Translations under genes and position numbers: made by a program | Notes under the pieces: generated by a model | Database searches by the model: none | Seen by the model: only the letters and a program-made list of their open reading frames with translations | What the model was told of the DNA's origin: nothing | Virus record (IMG/VR): IMGVR_UViG_3300042090_000890 | Span: 1 to 64,000 of that record | Strand: one strand, 5' to 3' | Source: a virus | DNA length: 64,000 bases | In this document: one piece after another, positions 3,439-31,435 of the stretch | Layout: each line of letters starts with the position of its first letter | Position numbering within the stretch: position 1 is the first letter of the stretch

Positions 3439-3958
3439 CGGCTTCCTTGATGAATTTTTCGATTTCTTTCACGCCACGGAGAGTGATCTCTTCGAACTCG
3501 GAAGTCTTCGTTTTCATGACCTTGAACGTTAGGCCAACGTTTTGGCCGTTCGCGTTCTTTTTGGCTTCAGCAAAGCCTTTCTTAAGCTCCGCCAGCTTGT
3601 TCTCCGGTAGCTTCAATTTGGCGGATGACTTCTGCTTCCTTGCCAAGTCGCGAGTTTCCTTGTCGGTCAATTTCTTCGGAGGCTTCTCTTCCTCCTGCTT
3701 TGCAGGCGACTCCTCTTTCTTAGCAACTACTTCTGGCGGAGACTCGACCTTCTCGGCTACCGACTTCAAACCTTCGAGCAATTTCGACTGTTTCAACTTC
3801 TCGATGAAATCGCCCGGAATTTCCCGTATCTCGGCAACCAGGTCTTCAAGCAGATCCTCGAAGGGCATAGCGTCAACATCGCTGCGCTTCGGACGAAGGT
3901 CGAATACGTAAATCACAAGCCCAGCAAGCAATAGCGCTATAATAATCCAGTCTGTCAT
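3413..3958 (-). CDS. Membrane-anchored charged protein, 181 aa
   Basis: An N-terminal transmembrane helix (residues about 4-19, WIIIALLLAGLVIYVF) is followed by a long Lys/Glu-rich helical region with a proline-rich acidic/basic linker (residues about 75-100) and a small C-terminal domain. The topology suggests a cytoplasmic coiled-coil body tethered to the inner membrane. The gene overlaps both neighbours (ATGA with the oxygenase gene upstream). I do not recognise a family. Confidence 0.6.
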   Translation of the reverse strand: MTDWIIIALLLAGLVIYVFDLRPKRSDVDAMPFEDLLEDLVAEIREIPGDFIEKLKQSKLLEGLKSVAEKVESPPEVVAKKEESPAKQEEEKPPKKLTDKETRDLARKQKSSAKLKLPENKLAELKKGFAEAKKNANGQNVGLTFKVMKTKTSEFEEITLRGVKEIEKFIKEADDKGYIVQ

Positions 3959-4818
3959 ATAAGCCCCAATTCTTTCAAGCGTTCGGTTAAATAGGAACCC
4001 GCCGTGTGACGCTCTGACAGCACGGTATTCGGGTTTGCGTGCAGAAACAATGGCATACTGTAACGCGACACGTTCGACTCTTCTCCGGAAGGATTGACCA
4101 CGCGGTGAGTCGTGCTTTTGTAGTATCCGCCGGTTGCCTCTGCGAGCATGTCGCCGACGTTCACAATGATCGGGTTACCGGCGCCGACTTCCACTTTGTG
4201 CCACACGCCGTCATTATCTTGCACTTCCAGACCTGGCTGTGTCGCCGCCGGTAAAAGGGTCAGGAAATTGATATCCTCGTGAGCTGCTGCTCGTACGGCC
4301 CCGCGCTCAACATCTTTGCCGAGAGGTGGATAATGCAAGATTCGGTAGAGAGTATTCCAGCAGCCGGTTACGGCGTCTGCCCATTGTCGATCGCATTTAT
4401 TGATGCCGACAGGAGTTGCTCTCTCAACTGCATTCAGCAGCTTCACGGATAGTGCTTCGAGCGAGATGAATGCCTCAGATGTTACGCGGCGCAGGTTCAA
4501 CGGAAGCGGAGGTAGTTGGTCTGCTATGGTCGGGTTGTTGCCGAAATAGTGATAGAATTCTTTGATGTCTGCGACTGTAGCGCCTTTGGCCTTTTCGGAC
4601 TTCATTGGAAAGTAACCAGATTGAGTTTCTTTCTTGAACATGAACCGATTCTTGTACGTCGGATGTTCGAAGAACCCGGCCCATGACTTGTAGCAGTCCT
4701 CGAATACGCTGGCAGGTATCCCGTGGTTCGTGATGACCGCGAATCCTGTGTCGCGCAGGGCCTGGACCAACCGCCCGTTAGCGTCTTCGTCCTGCAAATT
4801 TATCGTTGGCACTTTCAT
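3955..4818 (-). CDS. 2-oxoglutarate/Fe(II)-dependent oxygenase (isopenicillin N synthase-like)
   Basis: 287 residues with the full architecture of the IPNS-like dioxygenase family: an N-terminal DIOX_N-like segment (RDTGFAVITNHGIP, about residues 22-35), then the double-stranded beta-helix core with the iron triad H180-x-D182 (AHEDINFLTLL) and H238 (STTHRVVNP), and the 2-oxoglutarate-anchoring R252-x-S254 (SRYSMPLF). All metal and cosubstrate ligands are present, so it should be active. Such enzymes oxidise small molecules or modified bases; the substrate cannot be read from sequence. Its start overlaps a 52-residue membrane protein gene. Confidence 0.88.
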   Translation of the reverse strand: MKVPTINLQDEDANGRLVQALRDTGFAVITNHGIPASVFEDCYKSWAGFFEHPTYKNRFMFKKETQSGYFPMKSEKAKGATVADIKEFYHYFGNNPTIADQLPPLPLNLRRVTSEAFISLEALSVKLLNAVERATPVGINKCDRQWADAVTGCWNTLYRILHYPPLGKDVERGAVRAAAHEDINFLTLLPAATQPGLEVQDNDGVWHKVEVGAGNPIIVNVGDMLAEATGGYYKSTTHRVVNPSGEESNVSRYSMPLFLHANPNTVLSERHTAGSYLTERLKELGLI

Positions 4819-5579: not shown

Positions 5580-6800
5580 CTACCAAGTGAATTTAAAGGC
5601 CAGTTGCTTGTCGATTACCGCTTTGAGAATGAAATATGGGACACCGCCGTACTTCGCGATTTCCTTCATGTCGTTCGTGATGTACCGTTTTTCAAGCATC
5701 TTCGTCATTTCGTCGACTTCGCCCTTAAGCCCGCTTTGCATGTAAGCTGCGTCCAGCGCATGGCTTTCGGCGTCATTCATCGGTATCCCAGCGATGCCAG
5801 CCGGAGCGCGCCGGACGGCCCTGCGCATGCGCAGGCGAGAGGCCGGTCGACGATGGTGCGTCATAGGCGGCTTGCGTTCGTACAGAAGACCTAGATATTT
5901 GTCGCCGCGCAGCATACTCATGCGGTTAACGAGCGTGCCAGTCATGATAGCTGTCGCCTGGGAAGTGCCAGTCATGTATCCGTACTGGTCGCCTGGCAGA
6001 GTGGAATATACGTTGTTACCAAGCTCGTACTCGACCTTCATCTCACCTGGCTTAATCGAGTCCACTTTCCGATCTTGCGATAGCGTACCGGAGTAATTGG
6101 AAGTCGGCAGTACGGCATTGCCACGGTCGTGAGCCGACACCATCACGATTCTTGGATCGTACGCGGCGGGGTAGTATTTATGGATGTTGATGTCAGACCT
6201 TTCATTCCCGGCAGCGGCAACGAACAAGCCTCCTCGATCGAGAAACTCTGTAACCGCTGCGCGCTCTTCCTCGCTAGGAGCAAGACCGCCGCCGGAGTAA
6301 TTGATAACCGACGCTCCCATTTTGTTCGCGTACATGATCGATTTTACCGTATTTATTAAATTGTTGGACTCATTAGATTTCGGATCATAGTAGCGCAAAA
6401 TTATTAGGCAATAGTCTGCAGATCCGGCTTCCAATGCGACCAGTCCGGCAATGTGCGTACCGTGGCCGTGATGATCAGTCAAGTCGTTGTTATTGTCGAC
6501 GAAGTTCCAACCGTACACGTCATCGATGAAACCGTTGCCGTCGTCGTCGATTCCATTGTTGGACTTGTCACGGCCACGAGCGTCTTTGCCGGTTTCGCCT
6601 TCGTTCACACAGAGATGTTCTTTTATTCCGAGGTGGGTGACTTGGGCGCCAGTATCGATTACGGCTATCTTCACGGTCTTGGCGGTTACCGGGACAGTTC
6701 TTTCAACGACCGGCCAGCCTCCTGCGCCTTTAACGGCATCCAGGCTATCAGCTGCGGCAAAAGAACACACCAAATAAAGTGCAAGCAACAGAGTTCTCAT
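5580..6800 (-). CDS. Secreted subtilisin-like serine protease (S8 family)
   Basis: 406 residues. An N-terminal signal peptide (hydrophobic 3-17, cut site near AAADS) is followed by a peptidase S8 domain. The catalytic triad is complete: D49 in AVIDTG, H113 in GHGTHIAG, S280 in MTGTSQATA, with oxyanion-hole N199 in AAAGNE. A calcium-site-like NGIDDDGNGFIDD loop lies at about residues 82-94. After the catalytic domain, about 110 residues form a basic Arg/Pro linker (RRPASRLRMRRAVRR) and a helical tail. Export implies action in the periplasm or outside the cell, for example on envelope proteins or during lysis (inference). Confidence 0.93.
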   Translation of the reverse strand: MRTLLLALYLVCSFAAADSLDAVKGAGGWPVVERTVPVTAKTVKIAVIDTGAQVTHLGIKEHLCVNEGETGKDARGRDKSNNGIDDDGNGFIDDVYGWNFVDNNNDLTDHHGHGTHIAGLVALEAGSADYCLIILRYYDPKSNESNNLINTVKSIMYANKMGASVINYSGGGLAPSEEERAAVTEFLDRGGLFVAAAGNERSDINIHKYYPAAYDPRIVMVSAHDRGNAVLPTSNYSGTLSQDRKVDSIKPGEMKVEYELGNNVYSTLPGDQYGYMTGTSQATAIMTGTLVNRMSMLRGDKYLGLLYERKPPMTHHRRPASRLRMRRAVRRAPAGIAGIPMNDAESHALDAAYMQSGLKGEVDEMTKMLEKRYITNDMKEIAKYGGVPYFILKAVIDKQLAFKFTW

Positions 6801-6818
6801 GCCAGCATAATCTCATAA

Positions 6819-7244
6819 TCAGTCGACTTCGTCAACTTCGTCCTCTTTATCCTTCAAAGGGTTGAAAGGATTGCGATAAATACGATTTTTCTCAGGCAGC
6901 CATTCGGAGGCTGGCTTATCGTCCATGATCCAATCGAATTTCGATATCGTATATGTGAAAACGTCTTCCAGGCCGAGCGCGCAGACGATCTTGTACGCCC
7001 ACTCCTCGCCGCCCGCAGACCAAGCCACGATCGTAAAGTCGCGGGCAGCAAACTGTTTTACGATGTTGATGTGGCGACTGTGCGGGAGGCACGGGACTTT
7101 GATGCCGGTCTTCGACGTGAGCCATAAGATCGAGTCTTGGTCGATGTGATCCGGTATGCCTTTTTCAAACATGTCCATCAAGACCATTGTCTCGTCGATG
7201 TCGACGCCGAACGTTTTCTGTCCGCATTTAATTCTTTTTACCAC
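6819..7244 (-). CDS. HAD-like phosphatase
   Basis: 141 residues with the haloacid-dehalogenase motifs in order: motif I VDIDET (D15 nucleophile, D17 acid/base), motif II S76 in AWSAGGEEW, motif III/IV K102 and D108-D109 (SKFDWIMDDKP). No large cap domain is present, so it is a minimal C0-type HAD able to reach sizeable substrates such as polynucleotide ends or phosphoproteins. Related minimal HADs occur in phage end-healing enzymes, but no kinase is fused here. The acidic C-terminus (DKEDEVDEVD) is unusual. It overlaps the upstream gene by 17 bases. Confidence 0.8.
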   Translation of the reverse strand: MVKRIKCGQKTFGVDIDETMVLMDMFEKGIPDHIDQDSILWLTSKTGIKVPCLPHSRHINIVKQFAARDFTIVAWSAGGEEWAYKIVCALGLEDVFTYTISKFDWIMDDKPASEWLPEKNRIYRNPFNPLKDKEDEVDEVD

Positions 7245-7779
7245 CGTACACCTTCAATACTTCGCACCACGGACCGTGACCATGGAGATCCGTGTCTTTG
7301 TACCCTAACTTATGGGCGCCGCAGTCACAGATAGTCAGCGGCTTGGTTACCTCATCGTCATCTTCGAATTCGCCGAATATGCCCATTTTAGTTCGTTTGT
7401 ACGGCAGCGCTGGAAGCCCACAGAACTGATTCACTGCCTTTTCAATATCGACTATCCCGTATTTAACGCTCGTGCCGATTCCAGGCAGCTTGAACCCACT
7501 CGTTTTCGGGGTATATACCGTCACGTCGCCGGTTTGGGCTTCGAACGTGAAAATTGCTTCGATATCTCCGTACATCAATACCGGGTCCAACAACCATTGC
7601 GATGAAATCTTTCCGTGAACGTTGACGTATTTGATCAAATTTTTATCCACGAAAGGCAACGCCAGCACGACGTACCAGCTATCGTGACCGTTATCGTCCT
7701 CGTATGTGAGAAGATCGTAACTTGGATACGGGCCAGTAAGAAGTGGCATCAGAATGCCAGTCAGTTTGCTGATCATCAT
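7228..7779 (-). CDS. Hypothetical protein with C-terminal Cys/His motif
   Basis: The ATG at 7779 overlaps the upstream TGA (ATGA), giving 183 residues; the longer frame to 7878 is buried in the aminopeptidase gene. The body is beta-rich (SYDLLTYEDDNGHDSWYVVLALPF). The last 30 residues carry a probable zinc site (CDCGAHKLGYKDTDLHGHGPWC: C-x-C, H, H-x-H, C). Small CxC...H..C sites like this recur in phage proteins of unknown role. Translation is probably coupled to the aminopeptidase gene. Confidence 0.6.
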   Translation of the reverse strand: MMISKLTGILMPLLTGPYPSYDLLTYEDDNGHDSWYVVLALPFVDKNLIKYVNVHGKISSQWLLDPVLMYGDIEAIFTFEAQTGDVTVYTPKTSGFKLPGIGTSVKYGIVDIEKAVNQFCGLPALPYKRTKMGIFGEFEDDDEVTKPLTICDCGAHKLGYKDTDLHGHGPWCEVLKVYGGKKN

Positions 7780-8540
7780 TCCACCGTCAGAATTTCGTAA
7801 CCGGTGTCGGTCACCAGCACGGTGTGTTCGAATTGCGCGGACAATCCTTTCGGGCAGACGTACATCTTGACCTTGCATTTGTCGTATCCGAAGAGCGGTT
7901 CGATGTCGACTGCCTTATAGCTTTGATTCTCCCACACGATCGGCTCGACCGTTATACAGCTCCACGGCTTCAGAACGTCGCCTGTTCCAAACCGCCCTTG
8001 AGATGGTACGAACGGGAAATCATGGAAAATCTTGCCTATTCCGTGGCCGCCGATGTCCTTTACCAGCCACAGGTGCGGGTATTTCTTTTGGATGAGCGAT
8101 TCAGTAGCGAAGCCAATGTCGCCGGTCTTACCGAACGGTCTGATAGCACGGATGCCAGCATCCCGCGCTTCTAAAGCGGCCTGGATGACTACAGCCGCCT
8201 TCGGTAGCACATTCCCGATCGGGATAGTGACAGAGCAGTCACCGTGGTACGGGCCAACCTTGACGGTCACATCGATGTTTACGGTATCGTCCTGTCTGAG
8301 GCATCGGTCGTCTGGCACGCCGTGGCATAGTACCTCGTTTACGGACGTACAGATGGTCTTCGGGTACCCACCGTAGCCGAGGCAGGCGTTCGTTCCGCCG
8401 TTCGAGAGCGTGAAGTCGGAAGCAATCTGGTCGAGTTCATTGGTCGACACTCCGGCGACGGCGTGCTTCACGGTATGAGCCAACACTCGCGCTGCGAGCT
8501 TGCCAGCCTTTCTCATGCCATTTACGAACTCTTTGTCCAT
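7776..8540 (-). CDS. map: Methionine aminopeptidase, type I
   Basis: 254 residues, the usual length for type I MetAP. The five metal ligands are all present: D90 (NIDVTV), D101 (HGDCS), H166 (GGHGIG), E199 (TVEP) and E238 (FEHTVLVT); H73 (CHGVP) fits the substrate-binding histidine. It removes the N-terminal methionine after deformylation. A roughly 30-residue insertion (about 203-233) lies between the last two ligands. It is followed downstream by a coupled hypothetical gene and preceded directly by peptide deformylase (1-base overlap), so the two methionine-excision enzymes are co-translated. Confidence 0.95.
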   Translation of the reverse strand: MDKEFVNGMRKAGKLAARVLAHTVKHAVAGVSTNELDQIASDFTLSNGGTNACLGYGGYPKTICTSVNEVLCHGVPDDRCLRQDDTVNIDVTVKVGPYHGDCSVTIPIGNVLPKAAVVIQAALEARDAGIRAIRPFGKTGDIGFATESLIQKKYPHLWLVKDIGGHGIGKIFHDFPFVPSQGRFGTGDVLKPWSCITVEPIVWENQSYKAVDIEPLFGYDKCKVKMYVCPKGLSAQFEHTVLVTDTGYEILTVE

Positions 8541-9022
8541 TAAACCCTCTGGCGAAACGTGATCCCGTCGAGATGGTCAACCTCGTGGAGTATGCATCGG
8601 GCTGTGATGCCGGTAAAATTTCCTTCAATCTGATGCCCGTCGAGATTCTGCCAGGCAACTCTGATGTACGTCGAGCGCTTGACGGCCAACCTGACGCCTG
8701 GGAACGAAAGGCAACCTTCATCGTCGGCCTCTGCAGTTTCGGACGAGGATAACACGACCGGGTTGATCATGACCAACCGTTGGCCGCCGGGAATCGGCTT
8801 CTTGTTCTCATCTTTCATCTCGCGGGTATTGATGACGATGACCCGTCCGAGCAGACCGACCTGGTTGGCCGCCAGCCCGATGCCGTTGAACTTCTCCATC
8901 GTCGCGAACATACGCTCGACGATCGATCGCAGATTGGCGGTCTTGAAGTTGTTCATCGGCTGACACTTCTGTGAGAGGAACTCGCTTCCGTCCTTCTGAA
9001 TCTCGTACGTTTTCATTTGCAC
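8540..9022 (-). CDS. def: Peptide deformylase
   Basis: 160 residues with the three PDF motifs intact: GIGLAANQVG (47-56), EGCLSFPG (102-109, metal ligand C104) and HEVDHLDG (146-153, H146 and H150 metal ligands, E147 catalytic). It hydrolyses the formyl group from nascent peptides. The protein ends soon after motif III, without the C-terminal helix of long bacterial forms, as is common in phage PDFs. The ATG at 9022 or the one two codons later could be used. It lies directly upstream of methionine aminopeptidase. Confidence 0.95.
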   Translation of the reverse strand: MQMKTYEIQKDGSEFLSQKCQPMNNFKTANLRSIVERMFATMEKFNGIGLAANQVGLLGRVIVINTREMKDENKKPIPGGQRLVMINPVVLSSSETAEADDEGCLSFPGVRLAVKRSTYIRVAWQNLDGHQIEGNFTGITARCILHEVDHLDGITFRQRV

Positions 9023-9249
9023 TCCATTCTGGCGTTAAGACACACTTCCGCATCCATCAAGGCATCGTCTTCCGTGGCCGGTCCACGGAGTTGCTCGCGT
9101 TCGGCGATCTTGGTCGCGATACATACACGCCATGCTATCTTCTCGGCCTCCACTTTAGATGGAGCTGTGCCAACGCCGCCGGAGCCTTCCAGCACGCGGC
9201 ACGTCATCGCCTGGGCCGACCATAAGAAAAAGACTGCGAGCCACTTCAT
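9013..9249 (-). CDS. Small exported Cys-containing protein
   Basis: 78 residues beginning with a probable signal peptide (MKWLAVFFLWSAQAM) and then four cysteines (about C17, C43, C70, C77) that could form two disulfides in the periplasm. The end ARMECK is short and charged. It follows directly on a membrane coiled-coil gene and overlaps the deformylase start. A lipobox is not clear (AMTC), so an o-spanin assignment would be speculative. Confidence 0.6.
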   Translation of the reverse strand: MKWLAVFFLWSAQAMTCRVLEGSGGVGTAPSKVEAEKIAWRVCIATKIAEREQLRGPATEDDALMDAEVCLNARMECK

Positions 9250-9551
9250 TTTGCCTTCGCTTTCAATAGGATTTCATACTTGTTGCGCATGTCGATTACG
9301 TCATCCTCAAGTTCGCCTTGGACCATGATATTTTTGTCGTTGAACTCTTCGATTCGACGAACAATGTTCGCCATCTGCTCTTCGTCGGCGTGCTGTTGAT
9401 TGCGAATGGATTGGAGCATAGAAGCCATTTCATCCACTTCCGGCGGAGTCGGTGCGTGGTATTGCAAAAATTCGATATAAAACACCATCGTGCATATGCC
9501 AATAGCCAACCCGATAGCACCGTACAACCACTTCTCGAATTTATTTGGCAT
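9246..9551 (-). CDS. Membrane-anchored coiled-coil protein (i-spanin-like topology)
   Basis: 101 residues: a short cytoplasmic N-terminus, one transmembrane helix (about residues 9-27, LYGAIGLAIGICTMVFYIE), then a long helical coiled coil rich in Glu, Gln and Asn. This is the topology of inner-membrane spanins. It is followed (ATGA overlap) by a small exported protein and sits 0.3 kb from an M15 peptidase gene, so a lysis cassette is possible. Sequence alone does not prove it. Confidence 0.6.
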   Translation of the reverse strand: MPNKFEKWLYGAIGLAIGICTMVFYIEFLQYHAPTPPEVDEMASMLQSIRNQQHADEEQMANIVRRIEEFNDKNIMVQGELEDDVIDMRNKYEILLKAKAK

Positions 9552-9759
9552 TCTTGAGTCCTTCTTTCGGCCCGTAATACTCGACCGGGTGAGAGCCGTC
9601 TTCGTACTCTTCTATCGCACCTGGGTAGTGGATGTCAATGTATTTGGAGATCAAGGCGAGGACTTCGCCTTTCTGCAGATCGTGCTTTTCGATCATTTGA
9701 CCGCCTACGATCCGTTCGATTTCGTGCATGATATCGCCCATTTTCATCATCTTTGCCAT
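9541..9759 (-). CDS. Hypothetical protein, 72 aa
   Basis: A small acidic protein (MAKMMKMGDIMHEIERIVGG...) with a helical N-terminal half and a Tyr/Pro-rich C-terminal tail (DGSHPVEYYGPKEG). A TGATATAAT promoter-like sequence ends only five bases before the ATG, and no ribosome site is visible between them, so the mRNA may be nearly leaderless. No family recognised. Confidence 0.55.
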   Translation of the reverse strand: MAKMMKMGDIMHEIERIVGGQMIEKHDLQKGEVLALISKYIDIHYPGAIEEYEDGSHPVEYYGPKEGLKNAK

Positions 9760-9764
9760 AGCCC

Positions 9765-9773
9765 ATTATATCA
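9765..9773 (-). promoter_or_regulatory. Extended -10 promoter (near-leaderless)
   Basis: Read leftward, TGATATAAT lies five bases before the ATG at 9759. The usual 6-7 bases from -10 to the transcription start would place +1 at the start codon. No -35 consensus is evident 17 bases upstream. Confidence 0.5.
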
Positions 9774-9804
9774 TACGGGCGAACTACGGCAACACCTTCT
9801 CACT

Positions 9805-10233
9805 TTAGGGCGTGAAATAGCGTCCGGATGGTCCAGGCTGTCTCAAATCGACATGGACCCACGTGGTTGTTCCGCGCTCCATTCTGATACCGAGCGTCTC
9901 AAGTTGAGGTTCCAGAATGTCTTTCACTTGCTGTATGGTCAGATTTGGAGACGCATCAAAATCGCATGCGAGGTTCATCGCATGAACGTCCATGCCGGTC
10001 GGCAACAGAATCTTTTGCTCGATGTTGTACTGCGGCGAGCGAAACATGCAGTGTACATTCATCGGACAGCCGAGAGCAGATCGTACTTCTTCCAGCTTCT
10101 GACAGAGAGACTGTAGCAAGTCAAAGTTGGCACCGTCGGCTTCGGTAGCCAGTCTGCCCCAATTATGGAGCATTAAGCAGTCTTTTACGCTGAAATGATC
10201 CGTTACTGGATCATTAGGTGCGGTCCAATCCAC
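9805..10233 (-). CDS. M15-family D-Ala peptidase (endolysin-like)
   Basis: 142 residues with the zinc-peptidase M15 pattern: a CMFRSPQYN strand region, then H84 and D91 (HAMNLACDFD), and H127 with D129 (WVHVDLR), ending in GRYFTP as in many phage M15_3 proteins. These residues supply the two His and one Asp zinc ligands. The reaction expected is cleavage of D-Ala-containing peptide bonds in peptidoglycan. There is no signal peptide, so exit would need a holin. The GTG at 10233 follows AGGAGG. It is the best endolysin candidate in the window. Confidence 0.8.
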   Translation of the reverse strand: MDWTAPNDPVTDHFSVKDCLMLHNWGRLATEADGANFDLLQSLCQKLEEVRSALGCPMNVHCMFRSPQYNIEQKILLPTGMDVHAMNLACDFDASPNLTIQQVKDILEPQLETLGIRMERGTTTWVHVDLRQPGPSGRYFTP

Positions 10234-10241
10234 GACTCCTC

Positions 10242-10460
10242 CTACGGGTGCTGCTTGATGTACTCGATCTTGTTTCGAAGATCGGTAATCTTTTGCTGCA
10301 GCTGTTTGGTAAACGCTTCAAGGTCTTTCAACTTGTGGGCACACATGTCTTCGTTCATATTGTTCGCATGCGTCATCGTCTCGAACGCTGCCGTCTTGAC
10401 GAAGCCGGTCGTTTCGAACAAACCCTCGATTTCCTTGGCAACCATGCTATACGAGAACAC
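10242..10460 (-). CDS. Small helical protein
   Basis: About 72 residues, helical, ending in a short coiled coil (KDLEAFTKQLQQKITDLRNKIE). I use the GTG at 10460, which has GGAGG nine bases upstream and overlaps the end of the preceding gene. An internal ATG at 10445 lacks a ribosome site. Function unknown. Confidence 0.55.
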   Translation of the reverse strand: MFSYSMVAKEIEGLFETTGFVKTAAFETMTHANNMNEDMCAHKLKDLEAFTKQLQQKITDLRNKIEYIKQHP

Positions 10461-10647
10461 GGATATCGTCCTCCAAAATGGATGGATATTGGGCGCGGAT
10501 CATTTCCTTCGCCTTCTGTATGCTTTCGGCCAACGTGGGCTCGACAGACACTGCATGGCCAGCGTACTCGCCGCCTTTGGTCAACTCGACTTCTACGGCT
10601 GTTTCGATCGACGGGTGACGATCGATGCGTGCAGCTACTTTGAACAT
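10447..10647 (-). CDS. Hypothetical protein, 66 aa
   Basis: A 66-residue protein with a beta-alpha-beta feel (FKVAARIDRHPSIETAVEVEL, then a helix SIQKAKEMIRAQYP). Its ATG overlaps the TAA of the upstream pyrophosphohydrolase gene (TAATG), so translation is coupled. No family recognised. Confidence 0.55.
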   Translation of the reverse strand: MFKVAARIDRHPSIETAVEVELTKGGEYAGHAVSVEPTLAESIQKAKEMIRAQYPSILEDDIRVLV

Positions 10648-11105
10648 TATCCACCAGCCCCTTGAGTTGTCACCAACGGGACACTTACTGCTCCGCCGGA
10701 GCCGCCAGCAGCTACGGGCGTAGTCAACTTCTTTTCAAGGCGAGCTATTAAGTCGCCAGCGGCTCCGGCGGTCGGGCGGTTATCAACGAGATTGCCGGTT
10801 TCTTTGGCATCTACGATGATTCCGAGGCAAGCCAACGCGTGGGCGAGGTGCGGTTTGCCTGAGTCGGCAGCATTTTCTTCGCCGTCCAGCCAGGCCATCA
10901 AGTGGCGCATGGCGGCGTCGACGTAGATTGTGGCGACCACTTTGTTCTGTCTCCAATTATACGGACCATACTTTTTTGCGCCATCTTCCATCGCGAGAGC
11001 TTGGTAGATGATGCTCGAAGGTGGAACGAGGTGAAGATTCACCTTTTTCATACCGAGCAAGTCTTTCGGATTCGTGCCTAGTGTCGTACCGTTCGTTGAA
11101 TTCAT
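10647..11105 (-). CDS. MazG-like dATP/dGTP diphosphohydrolase-type protein
   Basis: 152 residues from the ATG at 11105, which follows GGGAGGT. The N-terminal ~95 residues match the all-alpha domain annotated in phages as dATP/dGTP diphosphohydrolase N-terminal (DUF5664-like): a NPKDLLGMKK opening, a LAMEDGAKKYGPYNW helix, HLMAWLDGEE with its acidic pair, then a GKPHLAHALACL helix. Family members hydrolyse dNTPs to dNMPs and include enzymes in altered-base nucleotide synthesis. The last 40 residues are a Gly/Ala-rich tail. No companion PurZ or DatZ gene is seen here, so base replacement is not implied. Confidence 0.7.
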   Translation of the reverse strand: MNSTNGTTLGTNPKDLLGMKKVNLHLVPPSSIIYQALAMEDGAKKYGPYNWRQNKVVATIYVDAAMRHLMAWLDGEENAADSGKPHLAHALACLGIIVDAKETGNLVDNRPTAGAAGDLIARLEKKLTTPVAAGGSGGAVSVPLVTTQGAGG

Positions 11106-11106
11106 G

Positions 11107-11895
11107 TTACCTCCCATTTAAAATTGATTTAACGGCTGCCAAAGGTACAGCGTACGCCCATGATGTAGGTCCGTAAGCGTACACCACTCCGACCAGATTT
11201 CCGACCGAGTCTACCACAGGACTTCCGGAAGCGCCAGGATACATTGCGAGAGTAGTGATCAGCGCAGAATCTGTTTCCGAGCAAAAGTCTACCATCTTAC
11301 TGGCCGGGAATAACGGACTTTCTGCTAGGAACGGGTAGCATTCAAACAGCTCTTGGAACTCAGATACCCTAGACGTAGACGCGTCTTTCATGGCTTGGCA
11401 TTCTTCCAAAGAAATGGCGGTACCTATCACACCGACGCCGACGGTTTCGTCCAATATACCGACTACTTCACCTGAGATGAACGTGAAAGGATTCAGGTTG
11501 GGATGCCCAGCGTAATAGATTGTCTGCCCGTAAGCGAGGCCACTGGCGAGTCTTATGCCAGTTTCGTTGGTCGGCGGCTTCAGCAAACACAGGTCCGAAT
11601 TATCTGATACGACTACTATGTCTATCTGTTTTTCGCCGTCTGGCGTAGAAGCCCATAGACCGCCGGTTTCTGCACCTTGGCAAACGTGGCGGTTGGTCAT
11701 GATATACGTGTTGCCGGACGGCGCCTGGATATAGAACCCGGTGCCGCCGGAACCGTTAGGAAATGACGGTTCGTTCTTCTGGGCCAACATGACCACTTTT
11801 TTCGATAGGTACGAGCGTAAAAAGATCCGCTGTGCTCGCGGCACTTCGAAGGCGATGATGACCATCGCTGCCAATAAAAAGAACGCAACGCTCAA
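11107..11895 (-). CDS. Membrane-anchored trypsin-like serine protease
   Basis: At least 262 residues. A hydrophobic N-terminal segment (VAFFLLAAMVIIAF) anchors or exports the protein, followed by a chymotrypsin-fold protease with the full triad: H70 (TNRHVC), D101 (NSDLCLLK) and S225 (GASGSPVVD). Four or more cysteines in the C-terminal lobe could form disulfides in the periplasm. The TTG at 11895 has no ribosome site; an in-frame CTG at 11928 lies five bases after GGAGGA and would add the basic segment LIRLISRALAT before the membrane helix, so the true start is probably 11928. Confidence 0.88.
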   Translation of the reverse strand: MSVAFFLLAAMVIIAFEVPRAQRIFLRSYLSKKVVMLAQKNEPSFPNGSGGTGFYIQAPSGNTYIMTNRHVCQGAETGGLWASTPDGEKQIDIVVVSDNSDLCLLKPPTNETGIRLASGLAYGQTIYYAGHPNLNPFTFISGEVVGILDETVGVGVIGTAISLEECQAMKDASTSRVSEFQELFECYPFLAESPLFPASKMVDFCSETDSALITTLAMYPGASGSPVVDSVGNLVGVVYAYGPTSWAYAVPLAAVKSILNGR

Positions 11896-11924
11896 GGTCG
11901 CAAGCGCGCGGGAGATAAGTCGAA

Positions 11925-12404
11925 TCAGAAACTTCCTCCGATACTGAGACCGTACACCTTATTGGTCAGACCGAACACGCCAACGCTGAACGGGCCGATG
12001 ATACGACGCTGTATGTGAACGCCGTAGCCCATAGAGCCTGTGTTGAGCAGTGTGTCGTCCAAGCGACTAGGAGTCGCAAGCGCGGAGATGTTCCAATCCG
12101 AATTGATGTTTGTCGTCGTGGTTGTGGACTGTGTCGTCGTAGTGGTATTTTTCTGGTCTGTTGTGACAGAGTTGCTCTTGTCCGTAATGTGAATTTCTTC
12201 TTTGACTGTACCATCTTTCTCGATGGTTTTGTCGATGGTTTCGTCTTTGTTGTCTGCCACGTCCGTGACTTTGTCCTCATTTGAGTTTGTGACCGTCTGC
12301 GTCTTAGTGACCACTTGGCTCGGAGTCGAATACCGACCAACGCAGAAACTCGCGGCGATGGCCGTGACCAGCACTATCGCGCCTGTTTTTAGACTGACTT
12401 CCAT
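11925..12404 (-). CDS. Exported Thr/Asn-rich protein
   Basis: 159 residues with an N-terminal signal anchor (residues about 6-22, KTGAIVLVTAIAASFCVG), then a polar Thr/Asp/Lys-rich stretch with a TTTTTQSTTTTTN tract, and a C-terminal beta-rich region (GYGVHIQRRIIGPFSVGVFG) ending in GGSF. Architecture suggests a periplasmic or surface protein. It ends in sequence that provides the ribosome site for the downstream protease gene. No family recognised. Confidence 0.6.
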   Translation of the reverse strand: MEVSLKTGAIVLVTAIAASFCVGRYSTPSQVVTKTQTVTNSNEDKVTDVADNKDETIDKTIEKDGTVKEEIHITDKSNSVTTDQKNTTTTTQSTTTTTNINSDWNISALATPSRLDDTLLNTGSMGYGVHIQRRIIGPFSVGVFGLTNKVYGLSIGGSF

Positions 12405-17826: not shown

Positions 17827-20800
17827 CTATGACATGTTATATTTTTCCAGATCAGATTCTGCGAGCAAAGGATTGATCGATCCGAGCTGGACGCCGCGCG
17901 GCGAAATATAGAAAGAGGCGAGAACCGGCAGCTTCTTATATCCGATCTCTGCGGAATCAGACTCTTTTGGCGGCCACAGCATTTCCTCAGTGAAGAAACC
18001 GTTGACGTCAAGTACCATCTTGTTCGCATACTTGGTTTTATTTTTGTATGGGAACGATTTCTCTGAGATGACATACGCGAGCACGTAGAACCGGCGTTCG
18101 TTGGGCGAGATACGAGCCGGATGGTACGTATTGTCGCCGCCATACGGTAGCAGTCTGTCGAACATCTGTCCGAGCCGTTCAGCCGGTACGCCAGCTGTAA
18201 ACTTAGATTTGAACAATTCTAACAGGTTGCCGTCCAGTACCGGGAACCCGTCCTGTGTGAACCACCCGTTTACCTCGTGATCCGCCACGATCGGCATCTG
18301 CCGCCCGCCACGGTTCTTGAGCATGACCGGTCGAAGGTCCTCGGAATGGATCTGAACCAATTCTTTACGTAGCAGGTACTTGCCTAGCAAGGATATGGAG
18401 GAGAACTCTTCCGGAATGGCCTCTGGCCTTTTGCCGCGAACTTCTCCGCGAACCTTTTCGAACTCGAATAACTTATCCTCGATCATTACACTCGTAGTGA
18501 ACAACGAATCCAATACTCCAGCCGCAATGAGCTTCCTGGCTATACCGGCGTTGACTGCCGATTTTCTAACCGCCGCAGTCTTTTCTTGGGCTTGACCGGA
18601 TTCTTTGGCAGCTTTCTTGACTTTGGCGGCAACTTTCTTGGCCTGCTCCTCTTCCTTGGTCGGGAAGTGGCTGCGTACAAAATGTTCGAGAGAAGTATAC
18701 GGCTTGCAGCGCATTAAATCTTCGTACGCCTTTTCGCCTACGCCGGACAGAATCGAAAAAGGCGCCACAATACGCTCACCGACGATTTCATACGATTCTG
18801 TTGACATATTAATGTCTGGCAGAGCCGTGAATTCTTTGACGTGCTTCCAAAATTTTGTCGCCAACTCATCCTTCGAAGAGTTTGAAAGGATCGCCTTCCA
18901 CCAGTCAAGTTTATAATTAGTCTTGAGGTACATACAGGCGTATGCGACATAAGAGTACGAAACGGCGTGAGATTTGTTGAAAGAGTAATTGGCTGATGCG
19001 TCGATCTGTTCCATCAACAATTTTACTTGATTTTCGCTCCATCCGCGAGCAAGAGCTTTGTCTCTGAGCTTCATGGTAGCGTCTGCCAGAACTTTCTTAT
19101 TCTTTTTACCAATACCGCGTCGGACTTCATCTGCTTCCGCGTCGTCCATACCGCCGATATCCGTAAAAATCTTCATAGTCTGTTCTTGGTAGAGCTGAAT
19201 CCCGTACGTGTCTCTTAGAATCGGTTCAAGATCCGGATGTAGATATTTGATCGCTTCGCCGTTCGCGCAGGATAGAAATACGTCCGCCAGAGTGCGACCG
19301 TCGCCGGAAGGCGCGTCGAGAGTACCAGGTCGGCAGAGAGAGGTGATCGCCGCATTTATCTCGATCAAATCTACCAGATTCTTTATCTTATCCGGCTTCA
19401 CAATCTTGGTCTGGTAAGGTCGCACGGTTGGAGTATCGAACTGGAAGACACCAATCGTGTTACCGGCTGCGAACTGCTCTGCGCATTTCGGGTCATACGG
19501 CAAATGGAACGGGTCCAACTGCAAACCTGTGCGCTCTTTGATCGACTTGACGGCCAGTCTGATATCCCGCAATGTGTTCAGTCCGAGAAGGTCGAATTTG
19601 ACCAGACCGGCGGCTTCTGCAGGCTTTGGCGAGAACGCAGTAGTAAATTCGTCGTTCACCTTGATGATCGGGACGTAATCTGTGATAGGACGGTCTGCGA
19701 TCACAAACCCGCATGGGTGCGACGACTTGTTGCGCACGATACCGAGCATCTCTGACACGACCTTCCACGTGTCCGGATTCTCGTCCGCATACTGTTTAAG
19801 GAACATGTTGGTGTCGTACAGGCCCGGCGTGTGGACCCCGTCCTTGTCGGACCCGAACACGAAAGCCTCGTCGTCAGTACCTTGCGGAGTGGAAGGCAAC
19901 TTGGTACATAGCCGCTCTGTGGCGGGCCGGACTTGGCCGTATTGCGCCCGCTCAGCGTCTTTGATTGATGACTTCAGCCGGAGGAGCATGTCGATTGAAA
20001 GTCTGCACGCCTTGTCGCCGTACTTCTGTTTAAGGTATTCGATGACAGTCTCTTGGTCAGACACGTCCATATCGACGTCGGGCAGGTTGTTGGCTTTGAT
20101 CCGACCGGCTGTTAGAAAACGACCGAATGACAGGTTGTGTTTCAGCGGATTAACGCCTGACACGCCGATCAGGTACATCAGAAGTGACCCGGCAGCTGAT
20201 CCCCGCACATTCATAAGCACATCATTGTTCCGGCAAAAGTTGGCGATGTCCTCGATCGTTTCGACGTATGACAGAAGGTTCAGTTTCCCGTTGAACGCCA
20301 GAATCTGCACTTCTTTTTTGAGCTGTTCGAGCATAACCGGGTCGCCCCAGTCCATACGGCCCCATTTGTCGATCGTACCTTTCAGCCGACCGAGGAACCC
20401 TTCAGCATCACCGGCTAAGATCCATCGCTCTTTCGAAGTTTGAAGTTTGAAACCGTCGAAATTGGATGCCCACGCATACGAGTTGTCGACCCACTCTTCG
20501 ATTTTCTTGTCGGATACTCCGAGAGATTTCTGCAGGATGGCGGCTGCTTCTTCCGTCGGCATGATATGATACGAGTTGTGGAAGCGCCAGTTCTCTTCGC
20601 CGTTGCCTAACTTGGCGTCTTGAATGACTTTTTGATCTTCTGTCGCAAAATGAGAATCGAGCGAGATTATTACTCGGTCGCCGTTTTGTTCGGCCAGTGC
20701 GATCACAAACTGATTCAACGGCTTTTGCAGGTCGCCTTCCGGCGCGTGATGGGTACATTCGTGCGGCTTGTAATATCCTTCTTTAACTATGCGACCATCT

Positions 20801-21504
20801 TCACCTTTTTCGGGTTTCTGCCAGTCGTGGGTCACCGTATGCGGGAACACTTCGATGAAAAATCCGTCTTTACCGGCTATTTCACGCATTTTGAAATACA
20901 TCCAGTTCGCTTTTTCGACGGACGGTTGAATGAGACCGTCGCGGGAAGCCATTAGAAAGTTTTGGACTGGACCTTTCATGCAAGACGAGCCAATCGTTAT
21001 GTGCCCGGCTGCGCCTTCCAGCTCCGCCAGCGTGATCATTGGCTTCAGCTCGTCGTACTTTTTTACGGCGCGAGAGTACATCGCCTTCGACAGCCCGCAG
21101 AAGTACCGGTACGCCCACTCGTCTTTGAAATGGATGGTTACGTGCAGGTATTGATTCATAGCCTTCGACTGTATGGCGCGCTCGATCGCCTCGGTGTTAC
21201 CTTCTTTGATGCGCGGCTTCCATACGCCGGTTCGATATGCTTCACGGTAGATGGCCACATACTCTTCATGGTACGGGTTTACCATGTATGCTTCGATGCC
21301 TAGGATAGGCTTGAGATTCGCTCCGGCGGCGGCGGTATACAAGTCCATCGCTGAGTTCATATTGCCGTGCTCCGTTAGGCACACGTGGGTCGCGCCGAGC
21401 TGCGCGTTGCGTTTGACGATCTGTTTGACCGTCGACGCGCCATCGAGGCTGTGGTCCGAATGTGAATGCGGATTGATGAGCTGCCGGAATTTTCTATCGT
21501 TCAT
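17827..21504 (-). CDS. dnaE: DNA polymerase III alpha subunit (DnaE-type replicase)
   Basis: About 1225 residues, close to bacterial DnaE. The N-terminal PHP domain carries H13, H15 and D17 (NPHSHSDHS) and a TEHGNM strand; the palm has the catalytic D476 and D478 in LPDVDMD, preceded by the MNVRGSAAGSLL stretch; the fingers include GVFQFDTP, and a YQEQTMKI segment with FNKSHAVSYS matches conserved polymerase-III positions. A helix-hairpin-helix/OB region follows. I choose the ATG at 21504, which overlaps the upstream TAG and follows GAGGG. Most phages use family A or B polymerases; a C-family replicase is seen in some large phages. Confidence 0.95.
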   Translation of the reverse strand: MNDRKFRQLINPHSHSDHSLDGASTVKQIVKRNAQLGATHVCLTEHGNMNSAMDLYTAAAGANLKPILGIEAYMVNPYHEEYVAIYREAYRTGVWKPRIKEGNTEAIERAIQSKAMNQYLHVTIHFKDEWAYRYFCGLSKAMYSRAVKKYDELKPMITLAELEGAAGHITIGSSCMKGPVQNFLMASRDGLIQPSVEKANWMYFKMREIAGKDGFFIEVFPHTVTHDWQKPEKGEDGRIVKEGYYKPHECTHHAPEGDLQKPLNQFVIALAEQNGDRVIISLDSHFATEDQKVIQDAKLGNGEENWRFHNSYHIMPTEEAAAILQKSLGVSDKKIEEWVDNSYAWASNFDGFKLQTSKERWILAGDAEGFLGRLKGTIDKWGRMDWGDPVMLEQLKKEVQILAFNGKLNLLSYVETIEDIANFCRNNDVLMNVRGSAAGSLLMYLIGVSGVNPLKHNLSFGRFLTAGRIKANNLPDVDMDVSDQETVIEYLKQKYGDKACRLSIDMLLRLKSSIKDAERAQYGQVRPATERLCTKLPSTPQGTDDEAFVFGSDKDGVHTPGLYDTNMFLKQYADENPDTWKVVSEMLGIVRNKSSHPCGFVIADRPITDYVPIIKVNDEFTTAFSPKPAEAAGLVKFDLLGLNTLRDIRLAVKSIKERTGLQLDPFHLPYDPKCAEQFAAGNTIGVFQFDTPTVRPYQTKIVKPDKIKNLVDLIEINAAITSLCRPGTLDAPSGDGRTLADVFLSCANGEAIKYLHPDLEPILRDTYGIQLYQEQTMKIFTDIGGMDDAEADEVRRGIGKKNKKVLADATMKLRDKALARGWSENQVKLLMEQIDASANYSFNKSHAVSYSYVAYACMYLKTNYKLDWWKAILSNSSKDELATKFWKHVKEFTALPDINMSTESYEIVGERIVAPFSILSGVGEKAYEDLMRCKPYTSLEHFVRSHFPTKEEEQAKKVAAKVKKAAKESGQAQEKTAAVRKSAVNAGIARKLIAAGVLDSLFTTSVMIEDKLFEFEKVRGEVRGKRPEAIPEEFSSISLLGKYLLRKELVQIHSEDLRPVMLKNRGGRQMPIVADHEVNGWFTQDGFPVLDGNLLELFKSKFTAGVPAERLGQMFDRLLPYGGDNTYHPARISPNERRFYVLAYVISEKSFPYKNKTKYANKMVLDVNGFFTEEMLWPPKESDSAEIGYKKLPVLASFYISPRGVQLGSINPLLAESDLEKYNMS

Positions 21505-21715
21505 TAGGTACCATACCCTCTCGGAGCTTAAGGATAGCAGATTTGTATAAATCTTCAAGCTCTTGTTGCGTAATGCACAAGGCCTTGCAGATCACGCTAT
21601 CTGGCGCGCCGTCGGGGTAGTAGTCGAGGAACGCTCTGAGAGAGTTGGAATGCTTTGGAGCATGGATATAGTCAGAATCTCTGGATATTTTGATGAGTTC
21701 TTCTTTCTTAATCAC
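21494..21715 (-). CDS. Stand-alone sigma region 4.2-like HTH protein
   Basis: 73 residues. The C-terminal 35 residues (PDSVICKALCITQQELEDLYKSAILKLREGM) have the helix-turn-helix spacing of sigma-70 region 4.2 and similar response-regulator HTHs: an A-x-x-x-x-I-T turn, then a recognition helix ending in A-x-x-K-L-R. This is the DNA-binding unit missing from the sigma factor encoded at 34968. It sits directly upstream of dnaE with overlapping ends. It could also be an independent small transcription factor. Confidence 0.6.
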   Translation of the reverse strand: MIKKEELIKISRDSDYIHAPKHSNSLRAFLDYYPDGAPDSVICKALCITQQELEDLYKSAILKLREGMVPNER

Positions 21716-29346: not shown

Positions 29347-29590
29347 TTTCCTCAGTATTCTCGCTATGCTTGTCGGCTCTGTCCGACATTATTTCTTCAA
29401 TGTTATGGAGCCGTTCGACCTTCCGGGCCATTGCTCCGTTGTCCAACTGTTCGACTACCGATATGCTACCAGTACGTATTACCGCCTTTGACTCGGTTTT
29501 GCAAGTCGGGCACGAAACAACTCGCTCTCGACGAACCAGAGATACTCTAAATTCGCCGTGGGCTGGACATTTGAAGGTGAACCAGGCCAT
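29339..29590 (-). CDS. Small zinc-ribbon protein
   Basis: 83 residues from the ATG at 29590 (GGAGGACACTG before it; TGATG overlap with the chaperonin gene). A zinc-ribbon-like start (FKCPAHGEF...VSCPTCKTES) is followed by a charged helical tail (ADKHSENTEESE). It resembles FmdB-type regulatory ribbons found in many phages. Translationally coupled to the chaperonin. Confidence 0.6.
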   Translation of the reverse strand: MAWFTFKCPAHGEFRVSLVRRERVVSCPTCKTESKAVIRTGSISVVEQLDNGAMARKVERLHNIEEIMSDRADKHSENTEESE

Positions 29591-31377
29591 CAGTGTCCTC
29601 CGTGGAGTGACCCTCGCTCGCCGATCGCTTTTTCGAACTGGCGGACCATGTCCTCTTCCGACTTGTCGGTCTGGTAGTCGCGTTTGAAAGCTACGATCCC
29701 GCCGAGCGTTCCGATGAGCGATGCGATCGAGATGCTGTTGCGAATAGCCTCGGCTACAGCCGGGAGAGAATCGAGCAGATCGGTCTTGCCGACCCATTTT
29801 TCTTCAGAGATGTCGTACGTTTGCTTATCGTTGAGCAATAATTCGCCGATCTGGCGCGTGATCTCCTCTTCGTTGTATCCGTAGTTGGAGTACAAAAGTT
29901 TGACCGGCTCAAGCAGAGCCTCCGCCAAAATCTCGATCGCATGGCGCTTGGCCGAAAGCGGCAATGAAAAAGCAGACGTATGAAGGTCGGCGGCCAGCCG
30001 GACCAGCACGTAGCCTCCGCCGGGAACAGCTCCGTGTTTGATAGCGCCTTTGATTGCCATCCAAGCGTCTTCCGCGCGGTCGCGCTTCTCGCGCGTCTCG
30101 CCCGCCGACGGACCGTAGATGTTGAGTCGTACGATGCCAGACGTGAGCTTGCCTTTTCGGATGTTCAGATCGTTTTCTTCGTAGTCTGATTCCGGATTTT
30201 TGAGCTGTTCCTTCAGTTCGTCGACGCGGATCTTGATGGCATCAGCGTCTTCGTCGGCGAAGATCATAGCCTTGAACCGGCTGCACTCAAAACGCTTGAC
30301 GCGGCACGAAGCGAGCAACCCTTCAGCGTTGATGTCTGTGATCGGATTGTCGATCGGATTGAACACTGTCGTGCCCGTGTACGCTTGCAGATCATACAGC
30401 AAGTTGGTCCGCCAGTTCATGATGGCCCGCTCCGGTGTCATCAGCGGGAAAACCTTCATGGCTGACTTTGGGTGGTTCCAAATCACATGCATGTCGCCGA
30501 GAGCTTGATCAGAGAAGCCGTGGGCAACCAACACAACGTTGTGCTCCGGGCGCTTAGCGGCCTCGGATGCTGCATAAAGTTTGTTCAGTGAATCGAACAC
30601 CTGCATGAAATCATTGATGATTCCGTCAAACAATACAAAGATCGGATTGTCGAGGACGACCATCGTGCCGGTTTTGTCATTGATGAAACCATTCGCCAGT
30701 GTGCGGCATGACTCCTCGTACCCGCGCTCGGAGGTGTAGCCATTGATCTTCTCGATCGCGTACCGCGAGTTACCGCCCGCATTGATTTCGACGATCGTCA
30801 TGTCGCCTTCTTCGCCGACCAAGTCCAACCCTTCGATGACTTTCTTGGCCAGTTCCGTGTCTCCGTTGGCAGACAGACAGGCGACCTTTTCGAGTGTTTC
30901 CGAGTAGTTGTCAGCGTCGATCAACAACTTTTCCGCCTCAATCTGAGACGTTATTCCCGGAATGAGACGCTGCATTTCCCGAACGATTTTCTGCGGCGAT
31001 AGCTTCGGATTGTTTTTCACAACGTCGATGGTCGCGCGGCATATCGCACTCGAAAGTACCGTGGCAGTAGTTGTTCCGTCACCGGCTTCGGAGGCGGTTC
31101 GAATCGCCGCATCGCGGGCAGCTTCGAGGATGAGTTGTTGGATCGGATTGTCATAACCAAGTGACTTGATTACGGTAACGCCGTCTTTCGTGATGATCGG
31201 TTTCATGTTAATCTCAGACCGTTCGAGCAAAACTTGTTTGCCGCCCGGACCCAGCGTGATCCCGGCCATGCGGGACATGTGATCGAGAGTATCGATCGTA
31301 TGCTGCGTCAGCTTGTCGCCAGACGGGACCATTACCTTGGCTGCGGATTTCGGCTTTGAGACCTGGAAAAGTGACAT
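29590..31377 (-). CDS. GroEL-like (Hsp60) chaperonin
   Basis: 595 residues from the ATG at 31377 with GGAGG before it. Group I chaperonin hallmarks: TLGPGGKQVLLE with KDGVTVIKS near residues 42-71, the ATPase GDGTTTATVL (99-108, D100 catalytic), and HGAVPGGGYVLVRLA in the C-terminal equatorial part. The apical domain is divergent, and the Gly-Met-rich tail of bacterial GroEL is absent. It folds phage or host proteins in an ATP-driven ring. No GroES gene is visible in this window. Known phage chaperonins (for example that of Pseudomonas phage EL) can work without a co-chaperonin. Confidence 0.9.
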   Translation of the reverse strand: MSLFQVSKPKSAAKVMVPSGDKLTQHTIDTLDHMSRMAGITLGPGGKQVLLERSEINMKPIITKDGVTVIKSLGYDNPIQQLILEAARDAAIRTASEAGDGTTTATVLSSAICRATIDVVKNNPKLSPQKIVREMQRLIPGITSQIEAEKLLIDADNYSETLEKVACLSANGDTELAKKVIEGLDLVGEEGDMTIVEINAGGNSRYAIEKINGYTSERGYEESCRTLANGFINDKTGTMVVLDNPIFVLFDGIINDFMQVFDSLNKLYAASEAAKRPEHNVVLVAHGFSDQALGDMHVIWNHPKSAMKVFPLMTPERAIMNWRTNLLYDLQAYTGTTVFNPIDNPITDINAEGLLASCRVKRFECSRFKAMIFADEDADAIKIRVDELKEQLKNPESDYEENDLNIRKGKLTSGIVRLNIYGPSAGETREKRDRAEDAWMAIKGAIKHGAVPGGGYVLVRLAADLHTSAFSLPLSAKRHAIEILAEALLEPVKLLYSNYGYNEEEITRQIGELLLNDKQTYDISEEKWVGKTDLLDSLPAVAEAIRNSISIASLIGTLGGIVAFKRDYQTDKSEEDMVRQFEKAIGERGSLHGGH

Positions 31378-31392
31378 AGAACCTCCAATTGC

Positions 31393-31401
31393 ATTATACC
31401 A
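31393..31401 (-). promoter_or_regulatory. Extended -10 promoter for the leftward block
   Basis: Read leftward: TGGTATAAT, 15 bases containing GGAGG, then the chaperonin ATG at 31377. It is the first promoter of the ~31 kb leftward block and faces away from the promoter at 31436. Confidence 0.7.
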
Positions 31402-31435
31402 CATCTCCTGATATGATCCGACGGTGAGGGAGTTC

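Follow-up and report, generated by a model that had tools for sequence, protein, structure and literature searches.

Why should a large phage encode two proteases that both appear to be destined for the host envelope? Many known phage proteases process virions, and the usual view of phage proteases is of enzymes that process capsids or serve host takeover in the cytoplasm; with a conserved exported pair, envelope proteolysis would become a routine step of infection across a widespread group of uncultured large phages. The question is raised by the IMG/VR virus record IMGVR_UViG_3300042090_000890, of whose 97,914 bases we analysed the first 64 kb (hereafter, the window), and which carries on its minus strand the genes of a subtilase of the S8 family and of a second protease with a trypsin fold (Table 1). 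We consider it rather probable that the window of this large Mx1-like phage encodes an envelope module of two proteases, which would cleave proteins of the host envelope in the course of infection. Since many uncultured relatives have both genes, such cutting is probably a regular part of infection in phages of this kind.

The large phages among which the window falls form a group close to Myxococcus phage Mx1 (OR576727; announced in PMC10720576), the nearest cultured relative found, with a capsid protein 52% and a polymerase 33% identical to those of the window, and with DnaE, SSB, RecA and primase genes in the same order. A capsid comparison across 49 records found a match in 29, in one case restricted to a short stretch, and no match in the other 20; by identity to the window the full-length matches fall into three groups: at least 66% (clade i), 48-60% (clade ii) and 28-31% (clade iii). 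A primase scan found 11 uncultured relatives. Loci in these and other records are given below by L numbers. The sole match of a capsid-alignment search for hosts in bacterial genomes, a 16-kb contig in a metagenome-assembled genome of Planctomycetaceae, was not accepted as a host.

A subtilase with a fused companion domain

The subtilase begins with the sequence MRTLLLALYLVCSFAAA and is laid out as a predicted signal peptide, a catalytic domain (residues ~41-291) and, fused C-terminally, a companion domain (~343-405). An earlier annotation made from the letters alone (the sequence-only reading) had called it a secreted subtilisin with a complete triad, and the comparison with its relatives bears out the family and the triad, secretion being likely: it carries the Asp-His-Ser triad and the oxyanion Asn of Peptidase S8, with Asp49, His113, Asn199 and Ser280 invariant in all nine aligned subtilases (that of the window counted), its N-terminus is hydrophobic, and a profile search matched it to subtilisin BPN' and others. 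In the structural model most of the core has a predicted local distance difference test score (pLDDT) above 90 and matches subtilases, while confidence is low for an insertion at residues 61-100 and for the last 110 residues. S8 was the sole Pfam match at E-values up to 0.1, so that an I9 prodomain was not found at that threshold; about 30 residues lie between the signal peptide and the catalytic Asp49. Compared with the close relative L003, the ratio of nonsynonymous to synonymous differences (pN/pS) is 0.21 for the subtilase and 0.29 for the second protease, neither falling outside the span of 0.135-0.404 shown by the 13 genes compared, with synonymous sites nearly saturated.

At four other loci (L012, L040, L155, L168) the companion is a small exported protein encoded by a stand-alone gene that, by its open reading frame (ORF) coordinates, lies directly downstream of the local subtilase gene and overlaps it. 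A profile built from these four proteins matched the extension of the window subtilase with an E-value of 7.5e-9, the best among 399 ORFs of the window, and clearly finds only the window copy. Homology of candidate companions at four further loci was weakened by the same profile, which gave E-values of 0.41 (L193), 0.6 (L008) and 5.1 (L010) and did not list that of L005. The fusion of the companion to the subtilase suggests that the two work together.

A second protease of the HtrA/DegS type

By its sequence and its modelled structure, the second protease has a fold of the HtrA/DegS type. It had been read as a membrane-anchored, trypsin-like protease with a complete triad; the triad stands and the anchor is predicted, the resemblance to an ordinary trypsin does not hold. 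His70, Cys72, Asp101, Cys103 and Ser223 are invariant in all 37 aligned sequences of this family (for brevity, trypsins). The model (mean pLDDT 92.7, predicted template modelling score 0.87) begins with a helix at residues 2-31, which together with the hydrophobic N-termini of homologues predicts an N-terminal anchor, and the charge distribution and cysteines would place the active site on the periplasmic side. Structural re-alignment, which took in Foldseek's own matches only, ranked HtrA1 and Deg1 highest (each Z 24.2, with root mean square deviations of 2.8 and 2.7 over 195 and 193 residues, respectively), with DegP, DegS and AlgW at Z 23.2-23.3 (DegS, 6ew9, 23.2). Foldseek itself placed Rv3671c (3lt3) first, with an E-value of 8.1e-11, and a sequence profile also points to the HtrA class; an ordinary trypsin was rejected because sequence profile, Foldseek and structural re-alignment all point to the HtrA type. 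Translation may start from the CTG at 11928, which runs into the upstream stop (CTGA), an overlap repeated in L003 and L040.

No PDZ domain was found in the protein at E-values up to 0.1, nor PDZ_6 anywhere in the 97.9-kb record of the window. A split DegS, with the PDZ domain on a separate gene, was rejected as a general rule: PDZ_6 matched in six of 45 records, in two of them over the cut-off, and lay beside or near the trypsin gene in only two. Proteins combining a hydrophobic N-terminus with a PDZ domain are encoded at L007 (14680-15165), next to the trypsin gene, and at L206 (369-995), near it.

Signals for export

That both proteases are exported, as the sequence-only reading had proposed, is likely from the sequences of their families. 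Of 55 short subtilases (up to 340 amino acids), 49 have a strongly hydrophobic stretch of 12 residues near the N-terminus, as do 83 of 87 trypsins; among 141 control ORFs it occurs in 8. In the window subtilase the hydropathy reaches 2.5 over 12 residues. The latter exceeds 340 amino acids through its fused extension, the other longer subtilases being mostly of another make. Lipobox-like sequences, by a loose pattern and some of them doubtful on reading, occur in six short subtilases and six trypsins. Cysteines near the catalytic His and Asp, in the motifs H-x-C and D-x-C, occur together in 83 of 87 trypsins, and a cysteine pair is found in 47 of 55 short subtilases; these conserved cysteines point to an oxidising compartment, though they do not prove one. 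The HtrA fold of the second protease fits export as well.

A partner gene next to the second protease

The trypsin gene adjoins, in all nine clade-i trypsin loci examined, a gene for a protein with a transmembrane segment and a C-terminus like that of outer-membrane proteins, which we term TM-OMP. The gene lies upstream of the trypsin gene in the window, L003, L004, L005, L006, L007, L012 and L040, and downstream in L163. Four of the eight upstream cases overlap the trypsin gene by ordinary starts and three more do so if the CTG start is right; in L004 a 24-bp gap intervenes. The last residue is F or W in every one of 13 distinct TM-OMP homologues; among 301 control ORFs it is F, W or Y in 24. 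The companions of the subtilases end similarly. A C-terminal F or W recalls the beta-signal of outer-membrane proteins. A homologue of the Mx1 primase-helicase directly precedes TM-OMP in L005, L006, L007 and L012, and none does so in the window or L003.

Distribution of the pair

The protease pair is more conserved than is visible from the window alone. Scans of viral contigs with single window proteins gave one distant subtilase and no trypsin; scans with alignments gave at least 80 loci for each. Among 12 records (the 11 primase relatives and one found with the subtilase), S8 is present in nine and Trypsin_2 in six (five over the cut-off), all six with S8. Trypsin_2 was found in 24 of 50 subtilase-selected records (22 over the cut-off) and S8 in 15 of 50 trypsin-selected ones. 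Since such samples are biased, a separate sample was drawn by the capsid protein alone, comprising the 33 of the best 80 listed loci that lie on contigs of at least 120 kb. S8 occurs in 25 of these records and Trypsin_2 in 11, in none of them without S8, a co-occurrence that is suggestive (Fisher p 0.03, with no correction for kinship).

In six other records (L045, L054, L086, L128, L204, L205) the two protease genes are neighbours on one strand, with an ORF of 90 amino acids between them in L045. Four of the six match the window capsid at 28%, and the records of L045 and L205 have no capsid match. Across 50,697 records of cultured phages, tblastn with two trypsins and with TM-OMP found no match, and two subtilase queries found 22 and 32 records, mostly of Bacillus phages.

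Gene setting

Table 1. Genes of the window bearing on the two proteases
Feature	Position	Strand	Evidence or remark
Putative exported subtilase (S8)	5580-6800	-	Peptidase_S8, Pfam E 2.3e-31
Small cysteine-containing protein with hydrophobic N-terminus, overlapping the next gene	9013-9249	-	ORF
Small transmembrane plus helical protein, i-spanin-like in outline only	9246-9551	-	
M15-type endolysin gene	9805-10233	-	PHROG 894 endolysin E 1.4e-9; Pfam M15_3 E 6e-4, under cut-off
Predicted membrane-anchored HtrA/DegS-type protease without PDZ	11107-11895 (TTG start) or to 11928 (inferred CTG start)	-	Trypsin_2 E 1.4e-17
TM-OMP partner gene	11925-12404	-	Transmembrane segment at the N-terminus, then a charged stretch; beta-like strands at the C-terminus, last residue F
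DnaE-type polymerase	17827-21558	-	Named after Mx1 match
SSB-like gene	Upstream of proteases	-	Named after Mx1 homologue
RecA/UvsX-like gene and primase	Upstream of proteases	-	
Head maturation protease candidate	45562-47310	+	PHROG 1028 E 8.8e-7; between portal and capsid genes

The proteases had been assigned to a late-type region, which the gene order does not support: they follow the replication-type genes DnaE, SSB, RecA and primase on the same strand, the terminase, portal, head-protease candidate and capsid genes occupy the plus strand from about 38.9 kb, and the gene context of the sister-clade loci read gives it no support either.

Between the two protease genes lies the gene earlier named an M15 peptidase. 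Its endolysin match in PHROG and a homologue in L003 that passes the Pfam cut-off speak for that name, which the window's own Pfam match falls short of. An endolysin-type gene is found 487-1410 bp beyond the trypsin gene in eight of the nine clade-i trypsin loci, its type varying between phage lysozyme (L006, L007) and M15/VanY-like (the other six, with the matches of the window and L040 under the Pfam cut-off). The ninth locus is L163 (subtilase sequence the same as that of L161 of record G038; capsid 83%). The spanin-like gene of the earlier annotation did not fare as well. Neither of the small overlapping genes at 9 kb had a significant family match in Pfam or PHROG, the spanin resemblance of the longer one is a transmembrane-plus-helix look judged by eye, and no clear lipobox was seen by eye in the shorter, whose L003 homologue is 64% identical.

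Several other genes of the neighbourhood may be recorded. Methionine aminopeptidase and peptide deformylase genes, an N-terminal processing pair, adjoin at 7776-8540 and 8540-9022 (minus strand); L003 and L005 have a homologue of each, as does L040 when judged by eye. The gene at 10647-11117 (minus) matches a dATP/dGTP diphosphohydrolase in Pfam (E 8.6e-26), and in PHROG its best match (E 4.8e-49) bears the label 'endolysin; inhibits RNA polymerase', which looks wrong. At 3955-4818 (minus) a gene matches PHROG 30382 (E 8.6e-85), with one weak match among cultured phages; by eye we take its product to be a 2-oxoglutarate/Fe(II) oxygenase or isopenicillin-N-synthase-like protein. A GroEL-type chaperonin gene lies at 29590-31404 (minus), and in L208 a GroEL-like gene, so identified by eye, overlaps the trypsin gene. 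A DnaB-like helicase gene is found at 32156-33478 (plus). In L005 (~3442-4590) the DnaE gene is apparently broken by an intein-like insertion, as judged from split frames and a C-terminal motif that we presume to be that of inteins.

What the two proteases may do

We envisage that the subtilase is exported as a signal peptide and catalytic domain, with the small companion that is separate elsewhere fused to its C-terminus; that the second protease, a DegS-like HtrA domain, is anchored in the inner membrane, its active site facing the periplasm; that its gene is coupled to that of TM-OMP, which may reach the outer membrane; and that in infected cells the two proteases would jointly cleave proteins of the host envelope. 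Sequence comparisons and models support the export signals, the two triads, the class of fold, the pair's conservation, the position of TM-OMP beside the trypsin gene and the fused companion; the location of the proteases in infected cells, their activity and their purpose are inferred. As to purpose, the two likeliest, each less probable than not, are a weakening of the tethers between outer membrane and wall for exit, which stands slightly ahead but is held with less confidence because no endolysin was recognised near the trypsin gene of L163, and the shaving of receptors or envelope defence proteins. Cleavage of envelope or receptor proteins and help in lysis had also been put forward by the sequence-only reading.

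A number of observations weigh against this reading. The export calls rest on hydropathy, motifs and inspection, and a hydrophobic N-terminus is present in three of the 24 subtilases longer than 340 amino acids, that of the window included, leaving 21 without. The C-terminal domain of the subtilase is modelled at low confidence. The co-occurrence of the two proteases is confounded by shared ancestry, 26 of the 50 subtilase-selected records had no Trypsin_2 and 35 of the 50 trypsin-selected ones, many of them fragments, no S8; neither protease was found in Mx1, the nearest isolate, which does have TM-OMP. At L163 no endolysin was recognised by eye within 8 kb beyond the trypsin gene. The clade-ii and clade-iii loci that were read have neighbours resembling genes of replication, repair or nucleotide metabolism (in L054 a DNA ligase gene, PHROG E 3.9e-62, lies beside the trypsin gene), and no endolysin was recognised there by eye, with no profile search made.

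Other explanations can be set beside this reading. The proteases could be lysis helpers only, that is, late accessory enzymes that cut the tethers between outer membrane and peptidoglycan after the endolysin has acted, replacing spanins or working beside them; the endolysin-type gene close to most clade-i trypsin genes, the spanin-like small gene nearby and the inner-to-outer-membrane layout of TM-OMP, as read from its sequence, would fit such a role. We nevertheless regard it as somewhat unlikely, given that the type of endolysin changes from locus to locus, that the proteases share a strand with the replication genes in the window, that no endolysin was recognised by eye at L163 or in the sister-clade loci read and that Mx1 does without both enzymes. 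The replication-type context in the window and in those sister-clade loci would agree with proteases made during replication that shave receptors or cut envelope defence proteins, in superinfection exclusion or counter-defence, and the patchy occurrence of the trypsin in the capsid-selected sample is as expected of host-adapted genes; the subtilase, however, is present in more of those records than is usual for a host-specific counter-defence gene, and this explanation also falls on the improbable side.

The HtrA/DegS fold of the second protease raises the further idea of envelope quality control or signalling, in which a substitute for DegS or DegP would clear misfolded envelope proteins or trigger the envelope-stress response of the host, with the OMP-like C-terminus of TM-OMP, or that of the companion, perhaps as the cue that it senses. 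The terminal F or W of the TM-OMP homologues, the similar ends of the companions and the PDZ protein genes at L007 and L206 are consistent with it, but the lack of a PDZ_6 match in the window's record and the scarcity of such matches elsewhere make it unlikely. That both enzymes serve to process virions or capsids and merely resemble exported proteins is very improbable, even if many known phage proteases do process virions (see also PMC7824862). Both carry export signals and conserved cysteines, and a separate candidate for head maturation lies between the portal and capsid genes; on account of that candidate, which had no Pfam match at E-values up to 0.01, and of the PHROG matches of the two proteases, which are to other families, a role of the pair in head maturation was rejected. 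The earlier view that they are not capsid proteases is thus probably right.

A bolder form of the envelope-module reading can be put forward as a speculation that we consider quite unlikely as it stands. A PDZ-less DegS-like protease would be ruled by a coupled inner-to-outer-membrane protein whose OMP-type C-terminus replaces the DegS signal, and a prodomain-less subtilase would depend for its folding, anchoring or restraint on a companion that ends similarly and is fused here, separate elsewhere, the pair acting together on the envelope as a proteolytic switch widespread in a group of large phages.

Comparison with known systems

A report of such an exported protease pair was not found in the literature searched, and the main text of a jumbo-phage overview (PMC7824862) contains none of the words 'trypsin', 'subtilisin' and 'periplasm'. 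Mx1 shares with the window its gene order and TM-OMP but has neither protease; a ClpP/head-protease-like gene (L038, 22702-23265) stands beside its TM-OMP, and similar genes lie near the subtilase-trypsin pair in L054 (5184-5873) and L205 (5339-6004). Cultured phages of Bacillus and other Gram-positive hosts (Goe3, FADO) resemble the window in that large phages encode S8 enzymes; however, three of the four subtilases read have by eye no signal peptide and resemble intracellular subtilisins, that of a Moorella phage being ambiguous. With the secreted subtilisins, the window subtilase has the catalytic domain, triad and signal peptide in common, but it differs from the classical ones in that no I9 prodomain was found and in its C-terminal companion domain.

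For the second protease, Rv3671c (MarP) of Mycobacterium tuberculosis, the first Foldseek match, re-aligns with a Z of 22.9 (3k6y) at a sequence identity of about 16-20%; it is reportedly a membrane protein with a protease domain, no PDZ domain and several transmembrane helices, encoded by a mycobacterial chromosomal gene. The closest parallel is the HtrA family, above all DegS, with which the window protein shares the protease fold and a predicted N-terminal anchor, and from which it differs in being phage-encoded, in lacking PDZ, in its conserved H-x-C and D-x-C motifs and in adjoining a TM-OMP gene. HtrA enzymes that lack PDZ, and a subtilase that has a companion but no prodomain, should interest protease biochemists too, and the pair would offer testable genes for how uncultured large phages handle the outer membrane. 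What the window presents are known enzyme families in a new arrangement.

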